Shown: positions 10,602 through 54,384 of the stretch, one piece after another | Layout of the letters: the number at the start of each line of letters is the position of its first letter | How positions within the stretch are numbered: the first letter of the stretch is position 1 | Source: an uncultured Monoglobus sp. | GTDB taxonomy: Bacteria > Bacillota > Clostridia > Monoglobales > Monoglobaceae | Reading direction: 5' to 3' | Assembly: GCA_947585115.1 (NCBI GenBank) | Contig: CANPWW010000006.1 | Location: forward strand, 1-54,529 | Length of the DNA: 54,529 bases | Notes under the pieces: model-generated | Database searches by the model: none | The model's input: the letters and a program-made list of their open reading frames with translations, nothing else | Told to the model about the DNA's origin: nothing | Translations under genes and position numbers: made by a program

Positions 10602-12032
10602 GTGAAAAAGACAATTACCGCGGTTTTGCTGACGCTTTGTCTGCTGGCATCAAGCCTCGGCGCCTATGCCTATGACCCCAACTGGTGGGCGACTGACACG
10701 GTAAAGGGCGCGATGGACTACAGCCTTATTTCCACGGAATACGGCAAAAAGCCTTATACCGACGCCATAAACAGGCTTGATTTTATAAACGTGGCGGTCA
10801 ATATCTACGCCACGATAACAGCCGAGAACGTGTCGTCAAACGCGTATAACCCGTTTATTGATACCGACAACGCCTTCCCCAATATGGCGTACTACGCGGG
10901 TATCATCAGCGGCGACGGCGAGGGGCACTTCTTCCCCGCGAACTTCATAACGCGCGAGGAAATGTGCAAGGTCATAACCAGCACGCTGTCTGCGGCGGGC
11001 GTTTTGGGCCCGTATTTTCCGTCGAGCGGAGTGTTTGACGATATCCAGGACGCGTGGCAGATCGACTCGTGGGCCAGGGACTATGTGGCGTTCATGCTCG
11101 ACAACGACTTGATGGCGGGATATGAGGGCCTGTTCAAGCCCCTTGATTATGTCTCCCGCGAGGAAGCGGCGATCATAGCCTATCGCTGCTTCGTAAAATA
11201 CGGCAGAGACGTCGACGGACAGATACAGTCGGCGCTCAAAGAGGGAACCGACTCGAACGGCAGACGCATCTATACGCTCGAGAAAACCGTAATGCAGAGC
11301 AACGGCACGGTCATAGCGCTGCGCAACGCGCCCGACAAGACCCTCGTCACACCCGGCGGAGAGATCGTGGGCGGAGGCAGTGAGCCGGTGGTCGAGACCG
11401 ATCCCCTGCCCGCTCCCGACGGAACCGGAGGCTTCGCGGCAAGCGGCACGCCGCTTCAGGTGCCCGACGCGAACGGACTTTATCAGCTCAAGACCTATTC
11501 CGAGACGCTCGCGACCGGCGAGGCTATGGACAAAGAGATGAGAATATTCGGCGATCTGGGAATCAGATACACCACAATGGAGGAAGCCGACGCTCACATG
11601 ACGGAAGTCACGGTGCCCGTTTGGGAGCTGCCCGACGGAGCGACCGAGCTGCAGACCGGCTGGCGGACGTTTAAGATCAACACGGTATTAAAAGACGACG
11701 TTGTGGCGATATTCAACGAGATATACAACTCGCCCACAAAGCCGCCGATCAAGGATGTGGCCGGATACGCGTGGAGAAGCGCGCTTTCGGGCGGCAGTCT
11801 GCCCGAGAACAACTACGGCACGGTCCTTGACATAAACTACAACGAGAACTACTGCGTCTACAAGAGCGGACAGCAGATAGGAACCTTCTATGACCCCGAC
11901 AACTCGATATTCTCGTTTGCTCCGACCGGCGCGGTCGTGCAGACCTTCGCCAAGTACGGATGGCTCTGGGGCGGCAACGCCTGGGTGAGCGGAACTGTCA
12001 ATTACATGCACTTTACATATTTGGGCAAATAA
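10602..12032 (+). CDS. S-layer homology protein with C-terminal M15-like (D,D-carboxypeptidase) domain
   Basis: A 476-residue exported protein: signal peptide (1-23, ending in GAYA), about three SLH repeats (24-88, 89-131, 146-203) that bind secondary wall polymer, a Gly/Pro-rich linker, and a C-terminal domain (about 300-476) like peptidase M15, which trims cell-wall stem peptides. The domain keeps GTVLDINYNENY, the aromatic WLWGG, and YMHF near the end. At the spot where M15 relatives carry the first zinc ligand (His in S-x-H-x-x-G) this protein has Asn403; Asp410 and His470 remain. It may be a non-catalytic wall-binding version. The start is GTG 10602 behind AGAGAGG. Confidence 0.82.
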   Translation: MKKTITAVLLTLCLLASSLGAYAYDPNWWATDTVKGAMDYSLISTEYGKKPYTDAINRLDFINVAVNIYATITAENVSSNAYNPFIDTDNAFPNMAYYAGIISGDGEGHFFPANFITREEMCKVITSTLSAAGVLGPYFPSSGVFDDIQDAWQIDSWARDYVAFMLDNDLMAGYEGLFKPLDYVSREEAAIIAYRCFVKYGRDVDGQIQSALKEGTDSNGRRIYTLEKTVMQSNGTVIALRNAPDKTLVTPGGEIVGGGSEPVVETDPLPAPDGTGGFAASGTPLQVPDANGLYQLKTYSETLATGEAMDKEMRIFGDLGIRYTTMEEADAHMTEVTVPVWELPDGATELQTGWRTFKINTVLKDDVVAIFNEIYNSPTKPPIKDVAGYAWRSALSGGSLPENNYGTVLDINYNENYCVYKSGQQIGTFYDPDNSIFSFAPTGAVVQTFAKYGWLWGGNAWVSGTVNYMHFTYLGK

Positions 12033-12119: not shown

Positions 12120-12148
12120 TTGAAAAACAGAGGAAAGCATGGTATAAT
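12120..12148 (+). promoter_or_regulatory. Promoter of the pectate lyase operon
   Basis: TTGAAA and TATAAT are 17 bp apart. Transcription would start near 12155, giving a ~175-nt leader before the first lyase start codon. Confidence 0.8.
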
Positions 12149-12150
12149 TA

Positions 12151-12265
12151 TGAGGAATTTGGGGAGTAGCATGCGGCGCGTGCCGTCGCGGACCTCGTCA
12201 TCACGGAATTTTGATGATTCCCGGGGCCGCGGTTCATAACGAATTTGCGAGACTGTAATTCAAGG
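12151..12265 (+). ncRNA. yybP-ykoY (Mn2+) riboswitch aptamer in pectate lyase leader
   Basis: The leader carries the signature parts of the yybP-ykoY aptamer in order: GGGGAGTAGC (12161-12170); a first hairpin (CGGC/GCCG, 12173-12184); a helix GCGGaCC/GGCCGC (12188-12194 with 12225-12230) enclosing the internal-loop motifs CGTCA (12196-12200) and CCGG (12221-12224) and a GGAA/TTCC-capped hairpin; and a closing GCGAGAC (12247-12253), the equivalent of the usual GCAAGACC. GAATT (12155-12159) pairs with AATTC (12257-12261) as P1. The 3' strand of P1 is also the 5' arm of the following terminator, so ligand binding should switch expression on. This RNA class is known to sense Mn2+ and normally controls Mn exporters. 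Assignment is by eye. Confidence 0.8.
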
Positions 12266-12306
12266 GTTTATTTGCGTGCCCTTGGATTATGGTCTCTTTT
12301 GTTTTT
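12249..12306 (+). terminator. Conditional terminator (riboswitch expression platform)
   Basis: 12249-12266 pairs with 12279-12296 over 18 bp (three G-U pairs, no mismatch) around a 12-nt loop, followed by TTTTGTTTTTG. It ends only ~13 nt before the ribosome binding site of the first pectate lyase. Because its 5' arm overlaps the aptamer's closing helix, it can form only when the aptamer is open. Confidence 0.88.
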
Positions 12307-12331
12307 GAAATTTTTTGCAGGAGGAATATAT

Positions 12332-14974
12332 ATGAAAAAGTTGATCGCTCTGTTTTTGTGTATGGCGCTGTGTCTTTCGCCGACGGTTCTCGCGGCGCCG
12401 CAGGATGCTGCCGCGGAAGCCGACAAGCTCATCGCCTTCCCCGGCGCGGAGGGCGGCGGAATGTACACCACAGGCGCCAGAGCCGCGTCAAAGCCCGAGG
12501 TCTATCACGTTAATAATTTTGGGGACAGCGGTACGGGCACGTTCCGAGACGCGGTCTCAAAAGAGAATAGGATAATCGTGTTTGACAAAGGCGGAAAGAT
12601 CGAGCTTAGATCGCCGATCAATATCTCAAAAAAGAATCTGACTATTCTGGGCCAGACCGCGCCGGGCGGCGGCGTCTGCATTTCGGGCGCTCCGGTCAAG
12701 GTCAGCGCCGACAACATAATCATGCGCTATCTCAGGTTCCGTATGGGCGTATACAGCGAGGTCGACAAAAAGTATGACGACGACGCGCTGGGCGGCACAA
12801 GCAGCACATCGAATCTGATCGTCGACCATTGCAGCATGAGCTGGTCCACCGACGAGTGCTGCTCGTTCTACGCGATAAAGGATTCCACGATCCAGTGGTG
12901 CATCATGACCGAGCCCCTCAACCGCTCGATACACGACGAGGGCAGCGGCATAGAGGCCCACGGATACGGCGGCATCTGGGGCGGCGTCAACGTCTCGTAC
13001 CACCACAACATGGTGTCAAGCGCCAACAGCCGCTTTCCCCGAGTGGGCACAAGCGAGACGGTCAGCTCCTACAAGGGCGGCAAGGACACCGAGAGCCTGC
13101 TCGATATCCGAAACAACGTGTTCTACAACTGGAACGGCAACAGCTCCTACGGCGGCGAGAACGGCGTGCGCGTGAACTTGGTTTCGAATTACTATAAAGA
13201 GGGCCCCGCCAGCAGCTCGATCAACAGATTTTATGAGATGTACGGCGGCAGCAAGGGCGGTAAGTCAAAATGGGGCACCGATATAGCCGTTGACGGAAAT
13301 TATTATGCCTCTAAAAACAGTCAGTCGTCCGCGGTCAGAGCGATAAACGAGGACAACACAAAGGGCGTTGACACAAGAGACTGCAAAACCTACAATATAG
13401 AGAGATACGACGAGACAATAGCCGGAACAACGACAAACCACACGCAGTATATCCGCGAATATCCTATCGGCACTCACTCCGCCGAGCAAGCCTTTAATCT
13501 TGTGCTCGAGCACGCGGGCGACAGCCTAAAGCGCGACGCGGTCGATGAGCGTGCGGTAAACGACGCGAGAGCAGGGACAGCCGAAATGGGCAATAACGGA
13601 ATAATTGACCTGGCGCATCTCAAGAAGATGCCGGCCATAACATACAGCTCCGGACCCGCGCCCGAGGACACCGACGGCGACGGAATGTCCGACGAGTATG
13701 AGAAGGACCATGGGCTCGATAAAAACAAGGACGACGCGCTCGGTAAGACGAGCGAGGGCTACTTCAATATAGAGGCGTACGCCAACTGGCTGGCCGAGGG
13801 CAACGAGCTGGAGATCCCTCCGATGTCAACCCTTGACCCCAATCAGCCCACTCCCACACCTTCGCCAACGCCTACGCCGACGCCGATACCGAGACACAAT
13901 ATAACGGTCGATGAGAACATGCAAAACGGATCGATCGAGATAAACGGAGTTTCGAGCCGAACGGTAACATGGGACGCCGCCGAGCACGCGGGCGAGATCG
14001 GCGGCAAAAAAACCTACAGCCTGAACGGCTCCGAGGGCAGCGACGGCACTCTGACAATATACGATGAGGCGACGACCCTTGAGGAGTACGACGGAGTGAA
14101 GGTGGCGAGGGCCGACAGCGGATCAAACGCGAATACCGAGGGCAAACCGTTTACGGGCGGCGAGGAGCCGAGCGGCTCAATATTTATGGCGAGCCCGGGC
14201 GTGGACGGCACTATGCGAATGGATGTGTTTGTATACGGCGGCAGCAGCGCTAAAACGGTACACATTTATGACAACTCGGCGAACAAAGACCTGTACACAG
14301 AGGGGATTGCCCAAAGGGGCGTGTATTCGTTTGAGTTTGAGTGCAAGGCGGGAAATAAATACTACGCGTGGATCGACGGCTCAAAACTGGGCCTCAAGAG
14401 CGTGACCGTGACAGGAGGCGGCGGAGCCTCCGCCAGAGTCGGCGAGACCGTGAATATCACGACCGTGCCGAACAGCGGCTATAAGGCCCACGGGATATAC
14501 ACGAGACCGGAGACCGAAACGCGCATGCTCGCGGAAAACAGCTTTTCGTTCATAATGCCCGACAGCGACGTGGTCGTCGGCGCGGAATTCAAGGACGAGT
14601 CGCTGCCTCTGCCAACACCCGATCCCACGGCCGCGCCTACCGCCGCGCCCGAGCCGACGGAAACTCCGGCCGCGACCGAAAAACCCGACGCGAAACCCGA
14701 TCATCTCTATGAGATCGCGGACTGCGGATTCGGCGGCGACGGAAAGATCAATATTGACCTGAAATATTACGGAGACGGCTCCGACAGAGCCAAGCTGATA
14801 ATCGCGTCATACGGCGGCAGCGGAGCCCTCGCGGACACAAAAATGTACGACATAACAGGCGGCGATATTTCGGCGGTCGATTATAAAAAGCCCGAAAGCG
14901 GAAGCATAAAAATCTATATTTGGAATTTTGAGACGCTGAGCCCGATGGCGGAAGCGTATGAAAAACAGCTTTAG
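12332..14974 (+). CDS. Secreted PL1-type pectate lyase, multidomain (first copy)
   Basis: An 880-residue exported pectate lyase. In order: signal peptide (1-22); a right-handed parallel beta-helix of PL1 type (about 30-420) opening with FPGAEGGGMYTTGARA and carrying LTILGQTAPGGG, VDHCSMSWSTDE and the SRFPRV segment with the likely catalytic arginine; a TSP3-like Ca-binding strip DTDGDGMSDEYEK (near 446); a Thr/Pro linker (504-522); a CBM-like beta-sandwich (523-690); an InlB-like repeat (about 695-755); a second linker; and the C-terminal ~90-residue module ending in IYIWNFETLSPM. It cleaves de-esterified pectin outside the cell by beta-elimination. ATG 12332 follows AGGAGG; an in-frame upstream start at 12245 lies inside the riboswitch and is rejected. 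Confidence 0.9.
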   Translation: MKKLIALFLCMALCLSPTVLAAPQDAAAEADKLIAFPGAEGGGMYTTGARAASKPEVYHVNNFGDSGTGTFRDAVSKENRIIVFDKGGKIELRSPINISKKNLTILGQTAPGGGVCISGAPVKVSADNIIMRYLRFRMGVYSEVDKKYDDDALGGTSSTSNLIVDHCSMSWSTDECCSFYAIKDSTIQWCIMTEPLNRSIHDEGSGIEAHGYGGIWGGVNVSYHHNMVSSANSRFPRVGTSETVSSYKGGKDTESLLDIRNNVFYNWNGNSSYGGENGVRVNLVSNYYKEGPASSSINRFYEMYGGSKGGKSKWGTDIAVDGNYYASKNSQSSAVRAINEDNTKGVDTRDCKTYNIERYDETIAGTTTNHTQYIREYPIGTHSAEQAFNLVLEHAGDSLKRDAVDERAVNDARAGTAEMGNNGIIDLAHLKKMPAITYSSGPAPEDTDGDGMSDEYEKDHGLDKNKDDALGKTSEGYFNIEAYANWLAEGNELEIPPMSTLDPNQPTPTPSPTPTPTPIPRHNITVDENMQNGSIEINGVSSRTVTWDAAEHAGEIGGKKTYSLNGSEGSDGTLTIYDEATTLEEYDGVKVARADSGSNANTEGKPFTGGEEPSGSIFMASPGVDGTMRMDVFVYGGSSAKTVHIYDNSANKDLYTEGIAQRGVYSFEFECKAGNKYYAWIDGSKLGLKSVTVTGGGGASARVGETVNITTVPNSGYKAHGIYTRPETETRMLAENSFSFIMPDSDVVVGAEFKDESLPLPTPDPTAAPTAAPEPTETPAATEKPDAKPDHLYEIADCGFGGDGKINIDLKYYGDGSDRAKLIIASYGGSGALADTKMYDITGGDISAVDYKKPESGSIKIYIWNFETLSPMAEAYEKQL
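14704..14971 (+). other. Shared C-terminal module (pectate lyase 1)
   Basis: About 90 residues with the pattern hydrophobic-IA-x-Y-x(3)-GALxxxKMYDIT ... IKIYIWN-x(5)-SPM. It is homologous by eye to the ends of pectate lyase 2 (17671-17935), the left-edge protein (724-1003) and the giant protein (46477-46800, minus). Confidence 0.7.
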
Positions 14975-14992
14975 CATTACGGAGGAGAAAAG

Positions 14993-17938
14993 ATGAGAAG
15001 AGCAATTTCACTTATACTGTGCGCGGCGCTGTGCCTGACGCTCTGCGCCTATAATATCCACGGAGAAAACGCCGTTTCGGCGGCGACAGACGGAAATTTT
15101 CCCGCTTTTCCCGGAGCGGAAGGCGGCGGAATGTACACCACCGGCGCCAGAGCCGCGACAAAGCCCGAGATTTTTCATGTGAAAAATCTGGATGACAGCG
15201 GCGACGGTTCGCTGCGCGACGCGGTTTCGCAAAGCAACAGAATAATTGTGTTTGACGTGGCGGGAATAATTAAGCTTGAAACGCCAATCGAATTAAAAAG
15301 CGGTAATCTGACAATTTTGGGTCAAACCGCGCCGGGCGACGGCATTTGTATCTCCGGTGCGCCCACCTATGTGAAGGCGAGCAATATAATCGTGCGCTAT
15401 CTGAGATTCAGAATGGGCGTTCATGATTACGCCGCCAAGCAATACGACGAGGACACTTTCACCGACGGAAAGAATCAGGATCACGTTATAGTCGACCATT
15501 GCAGCATGAGTTGGTCGAATGATGAGTGCTGCTCGCTGTATGCCATAAAGGATTCAACCGTTCAGTGGTGCCTGCTTACCGAGCCTCTGAATAAATCCAT
15601 TCATGATGAGGGAAAAGGAGTTGAGGAGCACGGTTACGGCGGACTTTGGGGCGGTGTGAACATGACATATCACCACAATTTTATATCAAACGCCAAGAGT
15701 CGTTTCCCCAGAGTCGCGACGAGCGCTACAACATCGTCTTATAAAAATCAAGATGACAAATTAAGTCTGCTCGATGTGCGAAATAACGTTTTCTATAATT
15801 GGCGCGACAATGCGTCATATGGCGGCGAGAATATGGTCAGGGTAAATCTTGTCAATAATTATTACAAGGAAGGCCCTGCCAGCAACAGTATACAAAGATT
15901 TTATCAGTTTACGCCGTCTAAAAAGGGGATCACTATGGGTTGGTCAACCGATCTTGCCATAGACGGAAATTTTTATGACGCAAAAACTCCGAATTCAAAA
16001 GTTGATAAAATTAACGCCGATAATACAGTAGAGACAGCGTATAAGCTCGAAGACGGCGTTACAAAATACAGCGTTAAAAAGTACGACAAAGACGAGCCGG
16101 GAACCGAGACCAATCACACTCAGTATATTCATGATTATCCCATAAATACTCAGTCCGCCAAAGAGGCGTATGAGTTGGTGCTAGACAATGTCGGAGCAAG
16201 TCTGAAACGTGACTATGTGGATGAACTCGCAATTAAAGACGCGCGTGCTGGAACTGCCAGCAGAGGCAATGATGGAATAATTAATTATGAAGATTGGGTT
16301 AAATTTGATGAAATTGTTTACGAGGGAACCAAAGCGAAAGATTCGGACAACGACGGTATGCCCGATGCTTATGAAGAGCAGGTCGGTCTTGATAAAAACG
16401 ACGCTTCCGATGCGCTTGAGAAGGATTCGGAAGATAAATATTTTAATATTGAGGCGTATGCCAACTGGCTGGTTGAGGGCAATGTGATACCGACGCCCAC
16501 GCCGGATCCGAACGCCACTCCCACACCGACGCCAACGGCCACGCCTGTTCCCACCGCAACTCCGGCGCCCGTCCACAATATCTCGATAGCCGATAATATA
16601 GAAAACGGCTCGATCGAGATAAACGGAACTTCGAGCCGAGAGCTTACATGGTCGGCTAAGGATCATCAAAGTGAGATCGGCGGCGCGAAAACTTTTAATT
16701 TAAACGGAGTTGACGCAAGCGGCGGCACGCTCGATATATACGATTCCAAAACCACGACCGAAACCTATGAGGGCTCGGTAATTGCCAGAGCCGATCAAGG
16801 CGAAAACCCGAATGTGAGCGGAAAGCCGTTTGCGGACAATGAAAAGCCCTCCGGCTCGGTGTTTATGGTTTGTCCCGCAAGCGACGGCAAACTTGTTATG
16901 GAATACTATGTCTACGGCGGCAGCGCCAGAACGGTGCATATTTACGATAACTCCGCAAATAAAGATCTCGAGACTGTGAGCCGCAGTGAAAGAGGCATAT
17001 ACACATTTGAGGGAGAATGCAAGGCCGGCAATAAGTATTATTTGTGGATCGAAGGCTCAAAGCTGGGGCTCAAGAGCGTGACGGTGACGGGCGGCGGGAT
17101 CGCCGCGAGAACGGGTGAGACGGTGAATGTCAGGACCCTGCCCGACGAGGGATTCAGGGCCGAAGCCGTGAATGTCACGCCGGAAACGCTGGTTACAAAT
17201 ATCAGCGAAAACAACTACAGCTTTGTTATGCCGAACAGCGATGTCACGGTCGGGGCAAGCTTTGTAAGCGCGGACACGCCCACCGAGGCGCCTTCGCCCA
17301 CGCCCACGCCGACAGCGTCACCGACGGCAACACCGACAGCGACGCCGACCGCGACGCCTACTGCAACGGCGGATCAGACGCCGTCTCCGACCCCGACGGG
17401 AACGCCGATTGTGACCGACGGGCCCGAGCCGACATTTACGCCCGCGCCTACGGCAACACCCGCAGCGTCGCCTACGGCAGCTCCGATCCCGACCACGTCA
17501 CCCACGGCAATACCGGTTGTGACCGAAAGTCCGGACGCCACTCTGCCGCCCGCGCTTATGCCGACCGTATCGCCCGCGGCGGATCCTACCGAAACGCCGA
17601 CCGAAACTGCTGAGCCGACAGCGGCTCCGACAATGACTGCGGAGCCGACCGAAAAACCGACGCCCGAATATCTCTATGAGATCAACGGTTATGATTTTGT
17701 TGGCGGAAAAATCAATATAGATCTGAAATATAACGGCGGCGGAGCGGACAAGGCGAAGCTGATAATCGCGTCATATTCCGAAAGCGGGTTTGTGACGGGC
17801 GTTAAAATGTTTGACATAACGGGCGATGATTTATCGGCGGTCGACTATAATGATCCCTCAAGCGGAAGGATAACGATCTTCATCTGGGATCCGAACACCA
17901 TGGAGCCTCTTGCCAAGGCATTTGGGCGCAGGTACTAG
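14993..17938 (+). CDS. Secreted PL1-type pectate lyase, multidomain (second copy)
   Basis: A 981-residue paralogue of the preceding gene, 18 bp downstream and surely co-transcribed. Same order: signal peptide, PL1 beta-helix (FPGAEGGGMYTTGARA, VDHCSMSWSNDE, SRFPRV), TSP3-like strip DSDNDGMPDAYEE, linker (498-525), CBM-like domain (527-700), InlB-like repeat, second linker, shared C-terminal module ending in IFIWDPNTMEPL. The second linker is about 130 residues of Pro/Thr/Ala-rich repeats against ~30 in copy 1. The catalytic part between about 15700 and 16450 is visibly richer in A+T than copy 1, so the pair is not a recent duplication. ATG follows GGAGGAG. The two enzymes may differ in preferred pectin region. 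Confidence 0.9.
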   Translation: MRRAISLILCAALCLTLCAYNIHGENAVSAATDGNFPAFPGAEGGGMYTTGARAATKPEIFHVKNLDDSGDGSLRDAVSQSNRIIVFDVAGIIKLETPIELKSGNLTILGQTAPGDGICISGAPTYVKASNIIVRYLRFRMGVHDYAAKQYDEDTFTDGKNQDHVIVDHCSMSWSNDECCSLYAIKDSTVQWCLLTEPLNKSIHDEGKGVEEHGYGGLWGGVNMTYHHNFISNAKSRFPRVATSATTSSYKNQDDKLSLLDVRNNVFYNWRDNASYGGENMVRVNLVNNYYKEGPASNSIQRFYQFTPSKKGITMGWSTDLAIDGNFYDAKTPNSKVDKINADNTVETAYKLEDGVTKYSVKKYDKDEPGTETNHTQYIHDYPINTQSAKEAYELVLDNVGASLKRDYVDELAIKDARAGTASRGNDGIINYEDWVKFDEIVYEGTKAKDSDNDGMPDAYEEQVGLDKNDASDALEKDSEDKYFNIEAYANWLVEGNVIPTPTPDPNATPTPTPTATPVPTATPAPVHNISIADNIENGSIEINGTSSRELTWSAKDHQSEIGGAKTFNLNGVDASGGTLDIYDSKTTTETYEGSVIARADQGENPNVSGKPFADNEKPSGSVFMVCPASDGKLVMEYYVYGGSARTVHIYDNSANKDLETVSRSERGIYTFEGECKAGNKYYLWIEGSKLGLKSVTVTGGGIAARTGETVNVRTLPDEGFRAEAVNVTPETLVTNISENNYSFVMPNSDVTVGASFVSADTPTEAPSPTPTPTASPTATPTATPTATPTATADQTPSPTPTGTPIVTDGPEPTFTPAPTATPAASPTAAPIPTTSPTAIPVVTESPDATLPPALMPTVSPAADPTETPTETAEPTAAPTMTAEPTEKPTPEYLYEINGYDFVGGKINIDLKYNGGGADKAKLIIASYSESGFVTGVKMFDITGDDLSAVDYNDPSSGRITIFIWDPNTMEPLAKAFGRRY

Positions 17939-46473: not shown

Positions 46474-49400
46474 TTAGAATACCGAAACGGGGTCGGCCAG
46501 GGGGGTCATGGTGTCGGCGCCGTCCCATACCATCAGCTTGACGCTTTCGATCTCGGCGCCTTGCGGTATGCTTATTTCTTTTGTGATCGCCTCGTCGTCG
46601 TTCACAAGTTCCACAATGTCCGCGTCGGTTATGTCCGCTTTGACAAGCGCGCCTTCCGCGTCGTAGAACGCCAGAATGAACGACGCGTCCATTCCTGAAC
46701 CGTCCGCGGGCGTGTCATACACTTCGTCTATGAAGATGTATGCCGTTATGTCTCCGCTTATACCGCTCGGGTCGTAAAGCACGTTTTGCTCCGGGTCACA
46801 CAGCAGCGCGTCGGCGATCACCTTTGTGTCGGCCGAGCTCAGATTTATATATCCGTCCCATACCATGATCTCATCGATCTGCGAGTTTTCGGTCTTTATC
46901 GCCGCGTCGCTCACCGTTATTCCGTATTCGCCGCCGGACGCCTGCGCTTTCGCTCTGAGTTTGATTTGGCACAGCTCGTCGCTCATAGGATCTTCGCCCG
47001 AATATCTTATCGTCACTTTGCCGTCTGACGCCGATACCGACACAGCCGACGCCGCGATCCCCTCGGGAGGTATTACCGATTCGTATTCGAATGTCTCGCT
47101 GTTATAGTCGACCGTCACGCGGTAACCCGTCACCGTGTTTTCGCTGTATATGTATATCGGCATGTCGACCGTGTCGCCCGCTCTGCCCGTCACGATTCCC
47201 GGAGACAGCACCGCTCTTTCGGGCGTTGTTTCCGCCGCGGGCGGCAGTGTTGCCGGCGCTTCCGTGGTTCCGGGCTCGGGCGTTACAACGGGTATTTCCG
47301 TAGGCGCGGCTGTCGGAGCGGGCGTCGCCTTTTTGACGGTGTATTCCGCCTCGAATACGGCGCTGTTCGCATAGCCTTTCTTTACGGCTATCGCCCTTAT
47401 ATTCATGTCTCCGCTTATCATTATTCCGCCGCTGTATTTTTTGCAGTTCTCGCTTGTCAGCGTGCCGTCGGTCGAGTAGTATATCTCGGCTCCCGACGTT
47501 GAGGTGCTAAGTGTCAAAAGTGTTCCCGCGTCGACTTCTCCGGGGTTGACGCTCGCCTCGATCGCTCCGACTTCGGTCACGACTACGCCTTCGGCGCTTA
47601 CCTCGCTGTCGTTCATGCCCTGCTTTACCGCTATCGCTTTGATCTGCGCCGAGCTCGTCAGATTTATCGGCTCTCTGTAGCGCTCCGACGATACCGACGG
47701 TTCCGTGCCGTCCGTGGTGTAATATATTTCCGCGTCGCTGTCGGCGCAGGTGATATACACCGTTTTTCCTCCGTAGTAGGACGCCGCCTGTATGAGCGGT
47801 TTTTCCACCGTTCCCGCGGGAGCTTCGGGCTCTATCACAATCGCTTTAAACTGCGCGGTCTGTCCGTTGTATGAAACGGTTATGATCTGCTGGCCCGCGC
47901 TGTTTGTGTCATAGCCGTATACTTCATAGTCCGTTACGGGCTCGCGTGTGTAGTTGTTGTATTTCGCCGTGATCTCCATGCCGCTTGTGTCAAGGCTCTC
48001 GCCCATGTAGTACAGCGTTTTGTCGGGCAGCGTTGTTATCTCTATTCCGATAAGCGACTTTTCAATAACGGTTATATCGAACTCGGCCTTAAACTCACCC
48101 TGCGTGACTTCTATGGTCTGCTCGCCGAGCTTTGACGCGTCGTAGCCCGATACTTCATAGTCGTTCGTCCCAGCGGCTGTGCCGTCGGGGTACACATTCT
48201 CGACCGCGAGTCCCGATATGTCAAGAGGCATTCCCTCGACGATTTCGGTGTTTGTCGGCGGCGTCTTTATCCGTATTCCCGAAGGCGTAAGTCTCGGTAT
48301 TGATTGCGTAACCGTTCCGTATTCCGAAACGTATGTCAAAGAGCCGTCGCTGCCTGATGTGGGTTCCGTGCGGTTTTCCTCGGTCCAAACGCTCGTGTCC
48401 GAAAGGTTCGGCACCTCGCGCGCGTCGGTCATGTCGCCGCCTATGCAGTATCTTTCTGCCGAGCCGCTCTCTGTCATGGTTGGTTCCTTTGTCATGTTCC
48501 ATTCGCCGTAGCTGTGGCTTACCGTGAAGTCGTCATACGCGGTGTCCTCGGAGTAGTTCGCGGTCGCCGCGAATACCGCCCTTATCGTATACTCGCCCGC
48601 CGTGTTCGGCCTGTAGGGGGTATATGTCGAATCGTCGGCGTCCTTTGCCTTGTACGAATATGTCACGTTATCGGTTCCGTTTGTGACCGACATCGCTATC
48701 GGTTCCGCCGCGTCCGCTCCGCCGCACAGATAGTCGGGCATTGTCACGCTTGTCTCTCCGCTCGCGGGAATAATATGAGCCGTGGCCGAAAGCGGCGCGT
48801 TTTCCTTTGGCGTTTCCGCCGCGTAATATTCCGCGTCGGCGCCGCCTATCGTGATCTCCGAGAGGTTGACCGAGCTGTAGTCTCCCGCCTCGGCCGAGGC
48901 GAAAGCGCCTTTGGCCGCCATCGTCACATCGTCGCCGCCTATGTTGCTCGGGGTGAGCGTCACCTTTGTGTCGGGTGTTCCGTCGAATATCTTGCTTGCC
49001 GCGAATACCGCGTATTCAAGCGGCTTTTGGGTCATTGTGACCGTCACGGTGTTGCTGCCGCTTCCGGCCAGGTTTATGCTGCCGCCGTAGTTTGCGGTTA
49101 CTTGGTTTTCTCCTATTTTGAGCCTCTTGTCGGCCTTTGTCTCAAGGATCGCGTATCCGCTGTCTTTGAGGCCGCTGTCATATTTAACCTCAGCCGTGCC
49201 CAGCAGAGTGTTTCCGACGTAGAAGTCGACCGTATCCTGCTCCGCGGCAAGGCTCACACCGGAGCTCGCTCTTGAAACTTGAGCCGCGAGATAGAGCGTG
49301 CCGCCGTATACCGCGGTTTTTGCCGCTCCCGCCGCCACGCTTGACGCGCGCGGCGCTATCGTGATCCTCACGTTCAGCGTCACGGCTTGCGTTCCGTAAT

Positions 49401-52400
49401 CCTCAACGCTCATAAGAGAGAAGTTCGGCGTCTTTTCAACCGCGTTTATCGTCAGCGCGTAGTTTCCGTTGGCTGTGTCCGCGGGCACTATGAGCATATC
49501 TCCGTTGATCTCGGCGCCTATGCTGTTGCCGCTCGATATCGTGTATATGAACTTATCCTTTGCGCTGTCTCTGTTTTTGTATGACATGTGCTTTGACAGG
49601 TCCTCGGTTATTCCGTCGCCGTACACGGCGTTTAAGGTTATCTCTTTGCCCTCGCCGCCGTAGGGTGCGCGGCCTACCGCGTATACCGTCATGTCGTCTG
49701 TTATCGGCGTGTCCGCCGTGAATTTATATTGATCGCCGTTTACCGCCCACATATTGAATATATATCCGTCGTTTGTCGGTGCGGTCGGAGGCGTTACGGT
49801 TCCGCCGTAGTTCACATAGTTTACGGCGTACTCTTTGTTGTCGTCGGTCACGAATGTCACTTTCAGAACCTTTTTGGTTATCATATCCGACAAAATCGGA
49901 TGATCGTCCTCGCCTATGGCCTGGCCCCATATCGGAACGGCGCCGCCGTCCTGGAGCATATGCGCCACCGCGCCGCTCTTGAGCTCGTCGGTGGTTTTCG
50001 CTTCGGGCGTTCCCGTGCCTCCGAAGCCGACGCCGCTCGGCGCCGTTCCCTCGAGGTAGAAGCAATTGATTATCCTGCTGTCGTCGGTTCCGCTGCCGCC
50101 CGCCACGGCGCCCAAGCCGCTCGACATATCATTTGCGCTCACGCTGCCCATATTCAGGCAGCTCTTTATTACCGATGAGGCGAGCGTGTCCGGATTGGTT
50201 TCAAACGATCCGACTATACCGCCGGTCTTGATGCCCGCGCTGCCCGAGACGGTGCAGTAGTTCAGGCAGTTTTCGACGGTTCCGCCCTCCAGAGAGGCAA
50301 CGATTCCGCCGGTGGCGGAGCTGCCGCTGACTGAGCCCGATACGGCCAGGTCTTTGACCATTCCGCCTTGAACGTCTCCGAACAGGCCGGTATACTCGCC
50401 GCCGCTTGCGTAAAGTTCGCTTATCATGTGTCCGCCGCCGTTAAATATGCCTTTGAACGAGTGGCTCCTGTCGTTTCCGATAGGCGTCCACGCCTGCTTG
50501 CCCTCGCCGTATTTTTCCGACAGGTCTATGTCGTTTGTAAGCGTGAAATACGCGCCTCTGCCGCCGCCCTCGTTCACGTAATCCCTTACGGATTCAAGGG
50601 TCTCAAGGTCGGGTATATCAAACGGAACCTCGGGCGTTCCCTCGCCGCTCAGCGCGGTCTCGGGATTGTTGATAAGCGTCGGCCTTCCGAGTATGTGATT
50701 GGTTTTCCACGGGCCGCCGATCCGATTTGCCAGGGTGCTCGCGAAATCGTCCGCGCTCGCCGGGAATATAAGGAACTGAGTTATGATCGGGCTGCCGCTG
50801 CCTTTGTTGTTGGCGGAGCTGCCCTCGAGATAATACAGGTCCGAGTACGATGCCGACTCCAGTCCGTACGAACTGCAGCGTATCAATCCGATAGTCGCGC
50901 CGAACATGTTGCCCGAGGCGCTGACATTGCCGTAGTTATACGCGTGGCTGATGTTCGCGGTCTTTTTTATGGTGGAGGATACCGATGAATTATCGTCCCT
51001 CAGTTCGCCGATAATTCCGCCGACATAATTCGAGCCGCCCACGTTTCCGGCGTTATACAAATTGTTGGTCCGTCCCGTGGCAAGTCCGATAACGCCGCCG
51101 ACGTCTTTGAGACCCATGACCGCGCCGGTGTTATAAGACTCCGATACAACGTTCTCAAACAATCCCATGTATTTGTGATAGCCCGAAATTCCGCCCGTAT
51201 AATCGTTTCCGTTTATATTGCCGCTGTTTGAGCATAACGATATGAGCGTCGCCGAGTTGCAGCCGGTGATGCCGCCCACATAAGTGTCGCCGCTTATATC
51301 GCCGCTGTTGCGGCAGCCGGTCACGGATAGAGTGGCTTCGTCCTGCGTGATTCCCGCAATGCCGCCCGTGTAATTCTTGCCTATAACGTCGTTGTTGTTG
51401 GTGCAGTTCTCTATTGTCGACAGATAATTTTTCAAGGTGCCCGCGATGCCGCCGGTGTTGTCGCCCTTGGCCGAGCTTATCGTGCCTCCGCCCGCGGTGT
51501 AGCAGTTTGATATATGTACCTCTCTCCTTATGCTGAGCGGTCTGTCGGCCGCGTTTCCGACGATACCGCCGACGTTTGCGTCGCCGCTGACATTCACGCC
51601 TGTGGATAAATAGCTGTTGGATATCGTTCCGCCCATGCTCAGTCCCGCGATGCCGCCGACGTTGGTGCCGCCGCTCACGTCTGCCGAAACGCCGCAGTTT
51701 GCTATCGCGGAGATTTCAGAGTCGCCGATAATGCCGCCGACATAGGTCACTCCGCTTACCGGCACGGAAACCTCGCAGTTTGTTACAGCCGCGTCCGTGG
51801 TGCCCGCGATGCCGCCGATATGGTCGCCGCTCGCCGCGATGCCGTCCAGAGGATTGCCGTCCTTAGAGAAAACGCTGCAGCCTGACAGCGGCTTGCTGCC
51901 GTATTTTCCGACGATACCGCCGACATATGATCCGGCCGCGGTGATGTTCACGCCGCTGCGGCAGTTGGTTATCGAGCCCAGACATTCGCCCGCGATGCCG
52001 CCGATATAATCGCCGCGGCAGTTTATCGAGCCTGTGAGCGTCAGATTTTTGACCGCTCCGCTCTCGCTTATATGGCTGAACAGACCCTTGTAAGGATCGG
52101 TCGTTATTTGGTCGTTTATATAAAATCCGCTTATCGTGTGTCCGCCGCCGTCGAGGGTGCCGTCAAACGCGGTGCTTATGGGAATCCAAGACAGCTTTCC
52201 CTCGCCGTATGCTGACGACAGGTCTATATCGGCGGTTATCTTAAAGTGCTCGCCCATGCCTCCGCCGATTTCCTCTATATGCTCGCGGAAACGCTCAAAC
52301 AACGCGGCGCTGCTGATAATATACGGATCATCCTCGGTGCCTGTTCCAAGGAACACAGTCTCGGTATTCTCGCGCAGCTGGGGTCTGCCCAAGGCTGAGT

Positions 52401-54384
52401 CGGACCACACGCTGCTGTTCAGAGACTCCGCCAGATTTATGAAATCATCTTTTTTAAGCGACTGTATACCGCTTTCGTCGCCCTGTATAACGCCGTGGCC
52501 TGGTATTCTGTAGTGGGTCGAGTCCTCCAGCCAATAGCAGTTGTTTATCACAGCCGAGGCGGCTCTGATATAGGCGATGCGGCCGAAGTAGATGCCCGTG
52601 CCTATGACTGTGTTGTAGAAGTACGAATCCGACAGCTCGGAGCCGCCCTCCATTTCACCGACCAAGCCGCCCGAGCCGTTGACCATTTGAGGCTTGCCGA
52701 CGCTGTAGCAGTTCGTTATAACGCCGCCGCTTTTGAGAATGCCCGCGATGCCGCCGCTTTCGCGGGAGGAATCGCTCGAAAAGAACACGTTGGTATAGCA
52801 GTTCGTTATCTTTCCCGAGCACTTCGCCGCTATTCCGCCGTTGATCGTTCCGTTGCACCAAGTGGTTCCGTTTACGCTCAGGCCTTCTATCACGGCGTTG
52901 CTGCCGACGGTTCCGAACAGGCCCTGGTCGGAGGTGCTTGATTTGTAAATATTGCTGATCGTGTATCCGTTGCCGTCGAAGTGTCCGTTAAACGGAGTAT
53001 TATCCGAGCCTATGGGAGTCCATAAAACCTCCTTCGGAGAGCTGCTGTTTCCGTCGTACACCCTTTCGCCGCACAGCAGCGATATATCTATATTTGCGTC
53101 AAGACGCGCGTATGTGCCGGAGCAGTCGTTGCCGCTGTTGACATAGTCGCGAAAGGCCGCGAGGGAGCGCGCGTTTTTGATAATATACGGGTCGTCCTCT
53201 GTTCCGCTGCCGTAAAACGTTTCCGGATTGTTTACAAGCAGCGGCGTATCGAGGAGCGGGCTCTTGCCCCACTCGGAATTAACGTTGTTTTGGTTCAGCG
53301 CATTCAATGTTTCCGGCTTCAGGAAGTCCGCGAGCTGCAGCTGTGTGGCAAATTTGTCACGCGGATATTTGTTGAGATAGAAACAGTTAATTACCGTTTC
53401 CTGACTTATGTAGGGGCCGTTGGCAACGTTTTTGCTTTCGCCGTATCCGACTAAGTAGTCCTGTAGCACAATAGTGCCGGTATTATAACAGGTTTCAACT
53501 CTGCTGTTCTCGTCGAAGTATGATGTTATTCCGGCGGGTTGGCCGTCGTCCGGACGGCAGGATCCGGCAACACTTCCGGTATTGTAACAGTTTTTTATTA
53601 TTCCGTTATACTTATACCCCGCAATTCCCGCTATCTTGTGGAAGTAATCCCTGACAATCATCTTAAACCCGCTTCTGACCATGGCGGTATTGTAGCAATT
53701 CAATATATTTCCGCCATTGCTTTGTCCTGCGATACCGCCAAAATAGCCATCAGAAGAGTCATTGTTACCTTCGACAGTGCCGAAATTGGCGCAGTTGATT
53801 ATGTCCGATGTGCTATAGCCGGTAATTCCGCCCACATATCCGCCGGGACGCTTAGAGAGGTAAGGAGTGTAGCTGTAAAGAGAGCAATAGTTTGTACAGT
53901 TTTCAATCGTTCCGTAGCTCGATCCCGCTATGCCGCCGAGATATTTATCCGCCTGGATATATCCTCTTACGGTCAGGTTTTTGACCGAGCCGCCCTCGCC
54001 GATACATCCGAACAGTCCCTTGTCGTTCGCCGCTTTTTGCGATATGTATATTCCGAGCACGCCGTGGTTCGCGCCGTCGAAATGACCCTTAAACGGTACG
54101 TCGGGACTGCCGATAGGTGTATGCTGATTTTTGTCGCTGCCTTCAAGATCGACGGAGTTCGTCATCTTGAAATACATGTTTTCGCAGGTGTTGCCGCTGT
54201 TAACATAGTCGCGGAACACGATAAACTCATCCCTGTTCGAGATGGTATACGGGCTCACCCGCGTGCCCTCGCCCGAAAGTCCGGGCCCATCCGCCGAAGC
54301 CGTCAGCACAAACCCCGGCACAAGCGACACCGCCATAGCGACCGTGAGTAAGATCCCGATCGCCTTCCTTAAAGTTTTTTTCAT
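46474..54384 (-). CDS. Giant secreted GLUG/Ig-like/cohesin-like surface protein
   Basis: A 2636-residue exported protein. A signal peptide (1-32) is followed by four large units, each opening with a G-x-G-T-x(3)-PY-x-I ... FRDYVN ... DIDLS header (near 54285, 53215, 52350 and 50660) and continuing with GLUG repeats (GGIAG ... ITNC). Then come an InlB-like repeat (49670-49870), Ig-like and YDG-type domains (48780-49330), two bacterial Ig-like Big_3-type domains (47820-48290), two chitobiase-C-type repeats with IYYTTDGT/IYYSTDGT (47340-47815), a Pro/Thr linker, a cohesin-like domain (46840-47215) and the C-terminal module ending in VWDGADTMTPL. It is probably an adhesin or surface scaffold. ATG follows AGGAGG. 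No sortase motif is visible. Confidence 0.85.
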   Translation of the reverse strand: MKKTLRKAIGILLTVAMAVSLVPGFVLTASADGPGLSGEGTRVSPYTISNRDEFIVFRDYVNSGNTCENMYFKMTNSVDLEGSDKNQHTPIGSPDVPFKGHFDGANHGVLGIYISQKAANDKGLFGCIGEGGSVKNLTVRGYIQADKYLGGIAGSSYGTIENCTNYCSLYSYTPYLSKRPGGYVGGITGYSTSDIINCANFGTVEGNNDSSDGYFGGIAGQSNGGNILNCYNTAMVRSGFKMIVRDYFHKIAGIAGYKYNGIIKNCYNTGSVAGSCRPDDGQPAGITSYFDENSRVETCYNTGTIVLQDYLVGYGESKNVANGPYISQETVINCFYLNKYPRDKFATQLQLADFLKPETLNALNQNNVNSEWGKSPLLDTPLLVNNPETFYGSGTEDDPYIIKNARSLAAFRDYVNSGNDCSGTYARLDANIDISLLCGERVYDGNSSSPKEVLWTPIGSDNTPFNGHFDGNGYTISNIYKSSTSDQGLFGTVGSNAVIEGLSVNGTTWCNGTINGGIAAKCSGKITNCYTNVFFSSDSSRESGGIAGILKSGGVITNCYSVGKPQMVNGSGGLVGEMEGGSELSDSYFYNTVIGTGIYFGRIAYIRAASAVINNCYWLEDSTHYRIPGHGVIQGDESGIQSLKKDDFINLAESLNSSVWSDSALGRPQLRENTETVFLGTGTEDDPYIISSAALFERFREHIEEIGGGMGEHFKITADIDLSSAYGEGKLSWIPISTAFDGTLDGGGHTISGFYINDQITTDPYKGLFSHISESGAVKNLTLTGSINCRGDYIGGIAGECLGSITNCRSGVNITAAGSYVGGIVGKYGSKPLSGCSVFSKDGNPLDGIAASGDHIGGIAGTTDAAVTNCEVSVPVSGVTYVGGIIGDSEISAIANCGVSADVSGGTNVGGIAGLSMGGTISNSYLSTGVNVSGDANVGGIVGNAADRPLSIRREVHISNCYTAGGGTISSAKGDNTGGIAGTLKNYLSTIENCTNNNDVIGKNYTGGIAGITQDEATLSVTGCRNSGDISGDTYVGGITGCNSATLISLCSNSGNINGNDYTGGISGYHKYMGLFENVVSESYNTGAVMGLKDVGGVIGLATGRTNNLYNAGNVGGSNYVGGIIGELRDDNSSVSSTIKKTANISHAYNYGNVSASGNMFGATIGLIRCSSYGLESASYSDLYYLEGSSANNKGSGSPIITQFLIFPASADDFASTLANRIGGPWKTNHILGRPTLINNPETALSGEGTPEVPFDIPDLETLESVRDYVNEGGGRGAYFTLTNDIDLSEKYGEGKQAWTPIGNDRSHSFKGIFNGGGHMISELYASGGEYTGLFGDVQGGMVKDLAVSGSVSGSSATGGIVASLEGGTVENCLNYCTVSGSAGIKTGGIVGSFETNPDTLASSVIKSCLNMGSVSANDMSSGLGAVAGGSGTDDSRIINCFYLEGTAPSGVGFGGTGTPEAKTTDELKSGAVAHMLQDGGAVPIWGQAIGEDDHPILSDMITKKVLKVTFVTDDNKEYAVNYVNYGGTVTPPTAPTNDGYIFNMWAVNGDQYKFTADTPITDDMTVYAVGRAPYGGEGKEITLNAVYGDGITEDLSKHMSYKNRDSAKDKFIYTISSGNSIGAEINGDMLIVPADTANGNYALTINAVEKTPNFSLMSVEDYGTQAVTLNVRITIAPRASSVAAGAAKTAVYGGTLYLAAQVSRASSGVSLAAEQDTVDFYVGNTLLGTAEVKYDSGLKDSGYAILETKADKRLKIGENQVTANYGGSINLAGSGSNTVTVTMTQKPLEYAVFAASKIFDGTPDTKVTLTPSNIGGDDVTMAAKGAFASAEAGDYSSVNLSEITIGGADAEYYAAETPKENAPLSATAHIIPASGETSVTMPDYLCGGADAAEPIAMSVTNGTDNVTYSYKAKDADDSTYTPYRPNTAGEYTIRAVFAATANYSEDTAYDDFTVSHSYGEWNMTKEPTMTESGSAERYCIGGDMTDAREVPNLSDTSVWTEENRTEPTSGSDGSLTYVSEYGTVTQSIPRLTPSGIRIKTPPTNTEIVEGMPLDISGLAVENVYPDGTAAGTNDYEVSGYDASKLGEQTIEVTQGEFKAEFDITVIEKSLIGIEITTLPDKTLYYMGESLDTSGMEITAKYNNYTREPVTDYEVYGYDTNSAGQQIITVSYNGQTAQFKAIVIEPEAPAGTVEKPLIQAASYYGGKTVYITCADSDAEIYYTTDGTEPSVSSERYREPINLTSSAQIKAIAVKQGMNDSEVSAEGVVVTEVGAIEASVNPGEVDAGTLLTLSTSTSGAEIYYSTDGTLTSENCKKYSGGIMISGDMNIRAIAVKKGYANSAVFEAEYTVKKATPAPTAAPTEIPVVTPEPGTTEAPATLPPAAETTPERAVLSPGIVTGRAGDTVDMPIYIYSENTVTGYRVTVDYNSETFEYESVIPPEGIAASAVSVSASDGKVTIRYSGEDPMSDELCQIKLRAKAQASGGEYGITVSDAAIKTENSQIDEIMVWDGYINLSSADTKVIADALLCDPEQNVLYDPSGISGDITAYIFIDEVYDTPADGSGMDASFILAFYDAEGALVKADITDADIVELVNDDEAITKEISIPQGAEIESVKLMVWDGADTMTPLADPVSVF

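Follow-up and report, generated by a model that had tools for sequence, protein, structure and literature searches.

Why should an RNA of a manganese-sensing class stand in front of genes for secreted pectin-degrading enzymes? The question is raised by a leader that lies between a promoter and two pectate-lyase-like genes in a 54,529-nt stretch of DNA (the window: contig CANPWW010000006.1 of assembly GCA_947585115.1) from an uncultured Monoglobus sp. The genome is a 2.34 Mb draft, labeled G000, of which the window is contig C6; the other G-numbers denote compared genomes, and L-numbers denote individual loci fetched from them. Riboswitches of the yybP-ykoY class have been reported ahead of genes for putative cation transporters (PMC7266159). 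An earlier note on this DNA had placed such a switch in front of a lyase operon and had stated that no switch of this class on a polysaccharide lyase was known; none was found in searches of open-licence PubMed Central (PMC) papers, judging by titles and the starts of abstracts. The riboswitch class is known, and its wiring to lyases is new. The leader is read here, with high probability, as a Mn2+-responsive transcriptional ON switch for the secreted lyases that was rewired from metal efflux, Mn2+ being the ligand expected from the class.

Assignment of the leader to the yybP-ykoY class

The main evidence comes from a covariance model, R1, which was built with a hand-set structure from seven lyase leaders (G000, G006, G008, G009, G011, G012, and G013). 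Among 38 genomes of the family, R1 gave eight matches, all of them lyase leaders, and recovered the leader of G005, which lies outside the training set (73.1 bits; E-value, 2.1 × 10−14). In 391 genomes of the class, it gave 17 matches, seven in the genus and ten elsewhere (E-values from 2.5 × 10−8 to 0.005). According to Pfam, the genes behind these ten comprise two P-type ATPases, five Na_Ca_ex and three OAD_beta genes, all of them for cation transport. Because a model trained on lyase leaders only lands on cation-transport genes, the lyase leader is, as judged from sequence, homologous to yybP-ykoY, and the RNA is a standard riboswitch of this class. The class assignment made in the earlier note is supported by these reciprocal matches as well as by covariation and the residues of the metal site.

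The full-length aptamer occupies positions 12152–12262 of the plus strand, on which all of the features of the locus lie, and scores 129.6 bits with R1, of which it is a training member. Inspection of the sequence revealed all of the leader elements named in the earlier note, each where it had been placed. Covariation was observed for helices P1.1, P2, P3.1, P3.2, and P4 around a four-way junction. The 5′ strand of the switch helix P1.1 (12155–12162) pairs with 12253–12261, with compensatory changes at 12155/12261 and 12157/12259; within this helix, the P1 strands GAATT (12155–12159) and AATTC (12257–12261) pair with each other. The P2 hairpin (12174–12185) shows double-sided changes in three of its four pairs among 18 leaders and none among the seven close ones. 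The P3.1 helix, together with L3 and P3.2, spans 12188–12230; three double-sided pair changes are found in P3.2 (12205–12209/12217–12221) among the seven leaders, and both P3.1 and P3.2 vary two-sidedly among the 18. The P4 hairpin (12231–12245) has one-sided changes only in the seven leaders and double-sided ones in the 18.

In a MAFFT alignment of the seven leaders that was not fitted to the structure, 99.6% of 231 cells were paired and 15 cells were double-sided changes, neither figure being matched by any of 500 shuffles. In 18 sequences aligned to R1, an alignment that is fitted to the model and leans towards its structure, double-sided changes were found in 27 of 33 pairs and 94.5% of 565 cells were paired; none of 500 shuffles came up to the observed value in any of the five covariation measures, and 8–14 pairs were obtained in slid controls.

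The residues expected at the metal site are present as well. These were compared in 61 leaders (8 lyase and 53 transporter-type) that were hand-chosen from matches and aligned to a second lineage model, R2, in whose training set 18 of them are included. The L1 motif (GGGGAGTAGC / GGGGAGUAGC; 12161–12170), the CGUCA of L3 (CGTCA in DNA; 12196–12200), CCGG (12221–12224), and GCGAGAC (12247–12253), which forms the 3′ side of L1 and is shared with the terminator, follow one another, and the L1/L3 consensus is found with its invariant adenosine. G12162–A12168, C12196, C12199, A12200, G12223, and A12250–C12253 are identical in 61 of 61 leaders, and all eight lyase leaders retain each residue that does not vary among the 53 transporter leaders. 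A stretch of L3, CGUCAUCACGG, is common to the lyase leader and to the exchanger leaders L085 and L088. The lyase leaders differ from the transporter leaders in two P1.1 pairs next to L1, which in seven of the eight are U-G and G-U and in transporter leaders are mostly A-U. By its place in the sequence, A12200 is the counterpart of the adenosine that discriminates Mn2+, A41 of Lactococcus lactis and A48 of Xanthomonas oryzae; N7 of the invariant adenosine contacts Mn2+, and mutation of A48 (X. oryzae) abolishes the static docked state (PMC6754395).

Shared motifs were also seen in the Rfam family of Streptococcus small RNA 10 (RF02617, SSRC10), which outscores the Rfam yybP-ykoY model (RF00080) in the window with 18.9 bits but stays below its gathering score of 56. 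The RF02617 consensus is read here as resembling a yybP-ykoY member from streptococci. Low-scoring matches to STnc420, STnc410, CC3664, sroD, and sR32 in the region, as well as microRNA family matches on L009, were taken as chance.

Expression platform and proposed mode of action

The leader is preceded by a sigma-70-type promoter (12120–12148), TTGAAA-17-TATAAT, with an extended −10 element (upstream TG) and 11 of 12 consensus positions; in relatives, a TATAAT-like box was likewise seen by eye a few bases 5′ of the aptamer. The leader ends with an intrinsic terminator (12249–12306), for which the earlier note had given an 18-bp stem followed by a T-run. The terminator is present, and the fold gives 19 pairs, G-U included, for the stem (12249–12296), followed by a T-rich run (12297–12306). 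A simple terminator scan listed none, its loop limit of 8 excluding the 10-base loop that is present here.

The 5′ strand of the terminator contains the 3′ strand of P1.1, and the stretch 12249–12261 belongs to both L1/P1.1 and the terminator. Three genomes of one clade carry the coupled changes 12157-12259-12286 and 12155-12261-12284; the strand in common thus varies together with its 5′ partner in P1.1 as well as with its 3′ partner in the terminator. In the seven genomes, all 133 of 133 cells of the terminator helix are paired (0/500 shuffles), and its three double-changed pairs are equalled by 145 of 500 shuffles. In G005, a terminator of other sequence folds at the same place. Competition between P1.1 and the terminator is thus indicated by sequence and fold, and together with the coupled changes this supports the ON-type terminator sharing the closing strand of the aptamer that had been proposed earlier. 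The whole leader folds 4.2 standard deviations below dinucleotide shuffles, none of 200 being as stable, which is due to the terminator; the aptamer part alone is not exceptional (z, −0.23; 78 of 200 shuffles equal or better). That the leader is more than chance follows from its recurrence, with compensatory changes, in seven other Monoglobus genomes.

The arrangement resembles that of the L. lactis yoaB (P-type ATPase) leader, which likewise has GGGAGUA/AGAC in L1, CGUCA...CCG in L3, the invariant adenosine, and a P1.1 3′ strand that also forms part of an intrinsic terminator; the likeness is drawn from published descriptions, the L. lactis sequence being outside the alignment. The window differs from it in the genes downstream, secreted pectate lyases in place of a metal transporter. 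In L. lactis, Mn2+ keeps P1.1 in place; in its absence, the helix loses its 3′ segment to the terminator (PMC11087558). One review, by contrast, terms Mn2+ switches 'OFF' (PMC11477304). The direction ON was adopted here over the latter, as it follows the L. lactis mechanism and the geometry of the platform.

On this reading, transcription would start at about 12155, as the promoter suggests. At low Mn2+, the 3′ strand of P1.1 (GAGACUGUAAUUC) would pair downstream into the 19-bp terminator and transcription would stop near 12300. At high Mn2+, an ion bound between L1 and L3, in contact with A12200, would dock the four-way junction and hold P1.1; the terminator would then not form, and both lyase 1 and lyase 2 would be transcribed.

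Lyase genes, distribution in Monoglobus, and genes behind aptamers elsewhere

The upstream neighbor of the leader is an SLH/peptidase-M15 gene (10602–12032), and the promoter, aptamer, terminator, ribosome binding site (GGAGGA, read from the sequence at 12320–12325), and lyases follow in this order. Lyase 1 (12332–14974; 880 amino acids) is pectate-lyase-like, and lyase 2 (14993–17938; 981 amino acids), its paralogue with 60% identity, starts after a gap of 18 bp; both have a signal-peptide-like N-terminus by eye. Relation to pectate lyases is indicated by the match of lyase 1 to PDB entry 9buj_A, 'Pectate lyase' (E-value, 9.3 × 10−56). Lyase 1 matched no Pfam lyase model at E-value ≤ 0.001, lyase 2 scores 23.2 bits with PF00544, slightly below its cut-off of 24, and both score far under the cut-off of NF041900 (PelZ). 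The two lyases have in common a C-terminal domain (LYEI...IWN/IWD) behind Pro/Thr-rich linkers, and a divergent InlB B-repeat domain (PF18998) also occurs in them (window 12332–17938). In G000, lyase 1 has 16 matches at E-value ≤ 1 × 10−20, and R2 finds a single aptamer. A 2636-codon open frame was noted on the minus strand of the window (46474–54384).

The lyase-linked switch was found in 8 of the 12 genomes of the genus, and in 8 of the 9 that are at least 90% complete, which agrees with the conservation beside lyase genes that the earlier note had called for. Two layouts occur: the switch precedes lyase 1 and lyase 2 in G000, G008, G011, and G013, and stands between the two lyases in G006, G009, and G012. 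The earlier description of a switch ahead of a tandem lyase operon therefore holds for the window, but in three relatives only the second gene lies downstream of the unit. Lyase 2 is downstream of the switch in all of these seven genomes (in G013, according to the protein search only). The G007 contig seems to break off within lyase 1, and this genome was not counted as informative on absence of the switch.

In the genus, R2 finds the eight leaders at lyases and a further one in each of G004 and G005, which in both precedes a P-type ATPase gene; other switches in the genus could escape, since genome searches can lose aptamers. The ATPase fragment of G004 has its best NCBIfam match to a PMR1-type Ca2+ ATPase (337.6 bits over 470 residues; the cut-off for the full length is 798). 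The G004 and G005 copies of this ATPase share 71% identity; other genomes of the genus gave matches of 28–36% only, there was no match in G000 at E-value ≤ 1 × 10−20, and a close PMR1-type ATPase was not found in seven of the eight lyase-switch genomes. In G004, the switch-bearing ATPase lies just upstream of a gene row leading to the lyase a few genes away, and in G005 a distance of about 18 kb, which includes gyrA, separates the ATPase switch from the lyase switch. Local origin of the lyase switch from an ATPase switch is plausible but unproven. A recent copy of the ATPase aptamer was rejected as the source of the lyase aptamer: R1 gave no ATPase leaders of the genus at E-value ≤ 0.1, and a quick tree (midpoint-rooted FastTree without support values, which makes it weak evidence) places the lyase leaders in one clade apart from them.

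A gene for the Mn2+ exporter MntP (PF02659) is present in 10 of the 12 genomes of the genus and in all nine good ones. At the MntP loci of all eight switch genomes, no GGGAGTA motif was seen by eye, and a TATAAT-like box lies near the start codon. Unfiltered R1 and R2 runs on L069–L080 gave nothing at E-value ≤ 1; the same R2 run finds L003 and L004.

Outside the genus, a lyase was the assigned downstream gene at none of 122 distinct aptamer places. They are drawn from 78 places of a census (R2 matches in class genomes among those listed, with E-values ≤ 2.1 × 10−6), 37 loci classed separately (among which are the two ATPase leaders of the genus), and the ten R1 matches, with duplicates merged (L112 repeats L083 and enters the count a single time; L216 and L224 denote one place). 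As the downstream gene, the largest open frame starting within about 900 bases was taken and compared by BLAST with 16 reference proteins, and 11 unclassed census genes were scanned against Pfam; at L110, this rule picks the second gene, an exchanger, though MntP comes first. The 51 order genomes were all searched with R2 under stricter filters, and the non-genus places listed were among those read. The census places precede 30 P-type ATPase, 25 CaCA, 12 OAD-beta, and 11 other genes, the last of which Pfam assigns to GDT1 divalent cation antiporters (L203, L210, and L222), CitMHS (L157, L202, and L208), K_trans (L158), HlyD (L163), Band_7 (L166), and ABC_tran (L199), while L219 has no match. 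The yybP-ykoY-type leaders of Clostridia, which stand before P-type ATPase, CaCA exchanger, OAD-beta, MntP, and other genes, are found by the same R1 and R2 models and differ from the lyase leaders of the genus in the gene that follows.

Two side observations were made on these loci. At L125, an M48 peptidase was assigned downstream of the aptamer. Genes of OAD_beta (PF03977), which is a subunit of a Na+ pump rather than a classical Mn2+ exporter, often follow the aptamer in Clostridia (L082, L083, L089, L095–L099, L103, L106, L113–L115, L117, L120, L121, L123, and the 12 census loci); the only paper found to mention both yybP-ykoY and oxaloacetate decarboxylase deals with Na+ riboswitches.

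Alternative readings and biological meaning

Several observations weigh against a Mn2+-responsive ON switch. The Rfam model RF00080, with which the earlier note had proposed to check the aptamer, scores the leader far below its gathering score (12.8 bits vs. 45; E-value, 0.22–0.24), which, by the first refuting condition of that note, would count against the aptamer. Two of the five covariation measures fail against shuffles with only seven close leaders: 257 of 500 shuffles contain as many doubly changed pairs (5), and all 500 as many further pair types. The double changes divide the seven into two close groups and so represent few events. In G010, only a relic is left (L033, 1338–1480; 15.8 bits with R1, E-value 0.12; not found by R2 at E-value ≤ 1), in which the promoter and the 5′ half of the aptamer are lost, the terminator is kept, and a lyase-1-type gene stands alone. 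No aptamer was seen at the closest lyases of G004 (74% complete) and G014 (79% complete). Given this decay and these lyases, the coupling of switch and lyase is dispensable in some lineages. Variants of yybP-ykoY with another divalent ion as ligand are a possibility raised in PMC7266159. What the DNA itself holds for the favored reading is the architecture of the aptamer, the conserved residues of the metal site, the shared strand, the promoter, and the genus-wide conservation before lyases.

The failure of RF00080 says little here, because its cut-off is passed in none of the 38 family genomes, and it is read as a limit of sensitivity in this clade and not as a structural defect. An aptamer before an MntP gene in G034 (L002) reaches only 26.5 bits; in a joint search, an E-value ≤ 0.001 was reached in none of 12 sources that have aptamers; and two of these sources, L003 and L004, obtain E-values of 1.6 × 10−4 and 2.6 × 10−4 (22 bits) in the smaller per-genome search. 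At E-value ≤ 1, RF00080 lists the lyase leader in six more genomes of the genus and misses G005, which has the full leader. Rfam alone was therefore rejected as arbiter, some of the genomes that it does not pass having aptamers before metal transporters. Its matches L005, L007, L010, L012, L014, and L015 were left unused, the motif set being absent by eye. The RF00080 model has 177 positions and R2 has 107. R2 matches 26 of the 38 family genomes at E-value ≤ 0.5 and 150 of the 391 class genomes at E-value ≤ 0.01. The R2 genome search lost two aptamers that RF00080 had found: run unfiltered, R2 finds L003 (28.5 bits) and L004 (32.7 bits), and the genome search listed none in G029 and G023. Failure to find an aptamer in such a search thus does not prove that there is none. 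Screening with the Rfam cut-off, in turn, misses yybP-ykoY members in the clade of the Monoglobus family.

The alternative that survives best is a captured passenger, that is, a unit of promoter, aptamer, and terminator moved from a Mn2+-ATPase gene that serves as promoter or attenuator while its Mn2+ response is unselected. The ATPase with its own switch near the lyase in G004, the neighboring switches of G005, and the decay in G010 speak for it. The residues of the metal site, however, are all kept at a lyase identity of only 45–53% between the window and G005, the complete unit persists at two distinct sites within the operon, and the separate clade of lyase leaders, in a tree without support values, does not indicate a recent copy; this reading is regarded as unlikely.

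Slightly less probable is a yybP-ykoY fold with a changed ligand or modulator, responding to Ca2+ or serving mainly as a readout of alkaline pH, as has been discussed for E. coli alx/mntP. Ca2+ is commonly needed by pectate lyases, and the gene under control does not encode a Mn2+ exporter. Ligand-shifted variants of the class are deemed likely in a riboswitch review (PMC7266159), and alkaline pH tightens Mn2+ binding of the E. coli mntP switch 17- to 22-fold (PMC9603457). Against such a shift stand the residues invariant in 53 transporter leaders, A12200 among them, that all eight lyase leaders keep, and the L3 stretch CGUCAUCACGG common to two exchanger leaders. A chance match of motifs in a terminator-attenuator of another type, for which the low RF00080 score (E-value, 0.22) and the ordinary fold energy of the aptamer might be cited, is highly improbable in view of the ten R1 matches outside the genus, all before transporters, and the covariation in 18 leaders.

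For the favored Mn2+ switch, pectin breakdown may be licensed by Mn2+ sufficiency or by Mn2+ from plant matter; conceivable rationales are a supply of Mn2+ by plant matter, a licence for uronate catabolism given by sufficient Mn2+, or coupling to pH. A Mn2+-dependent oligogalacturonate lyase (PL22) is not supported as the reason, G000 having no PF14583 match. It is conceivable, at somewhat less than even chances, that the switch has left metal detoxification in the majority of the Monoglobus genomes in which it occurs, and that cytosolic Mn2+ is now a nutrient cue for pectin degradation; Mn2+ set free from plant cell walls, or arriving with them, would turn on the lyases, and digestion would free more bound metal in a feed-forward manner.

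Monoglobus pectinilyticus is a human-gut pectin specialist of this genus. If Mn2+ does control the lyases, a metal riboswitch would govern a carbohydrate-active enzyme, and the breakdown of dietary fibre in the gut would have a trace metal among its regulatory inputs. The wiring suggests that Monoglobus may use manganese as a cue for the digestion of plant cell walls.

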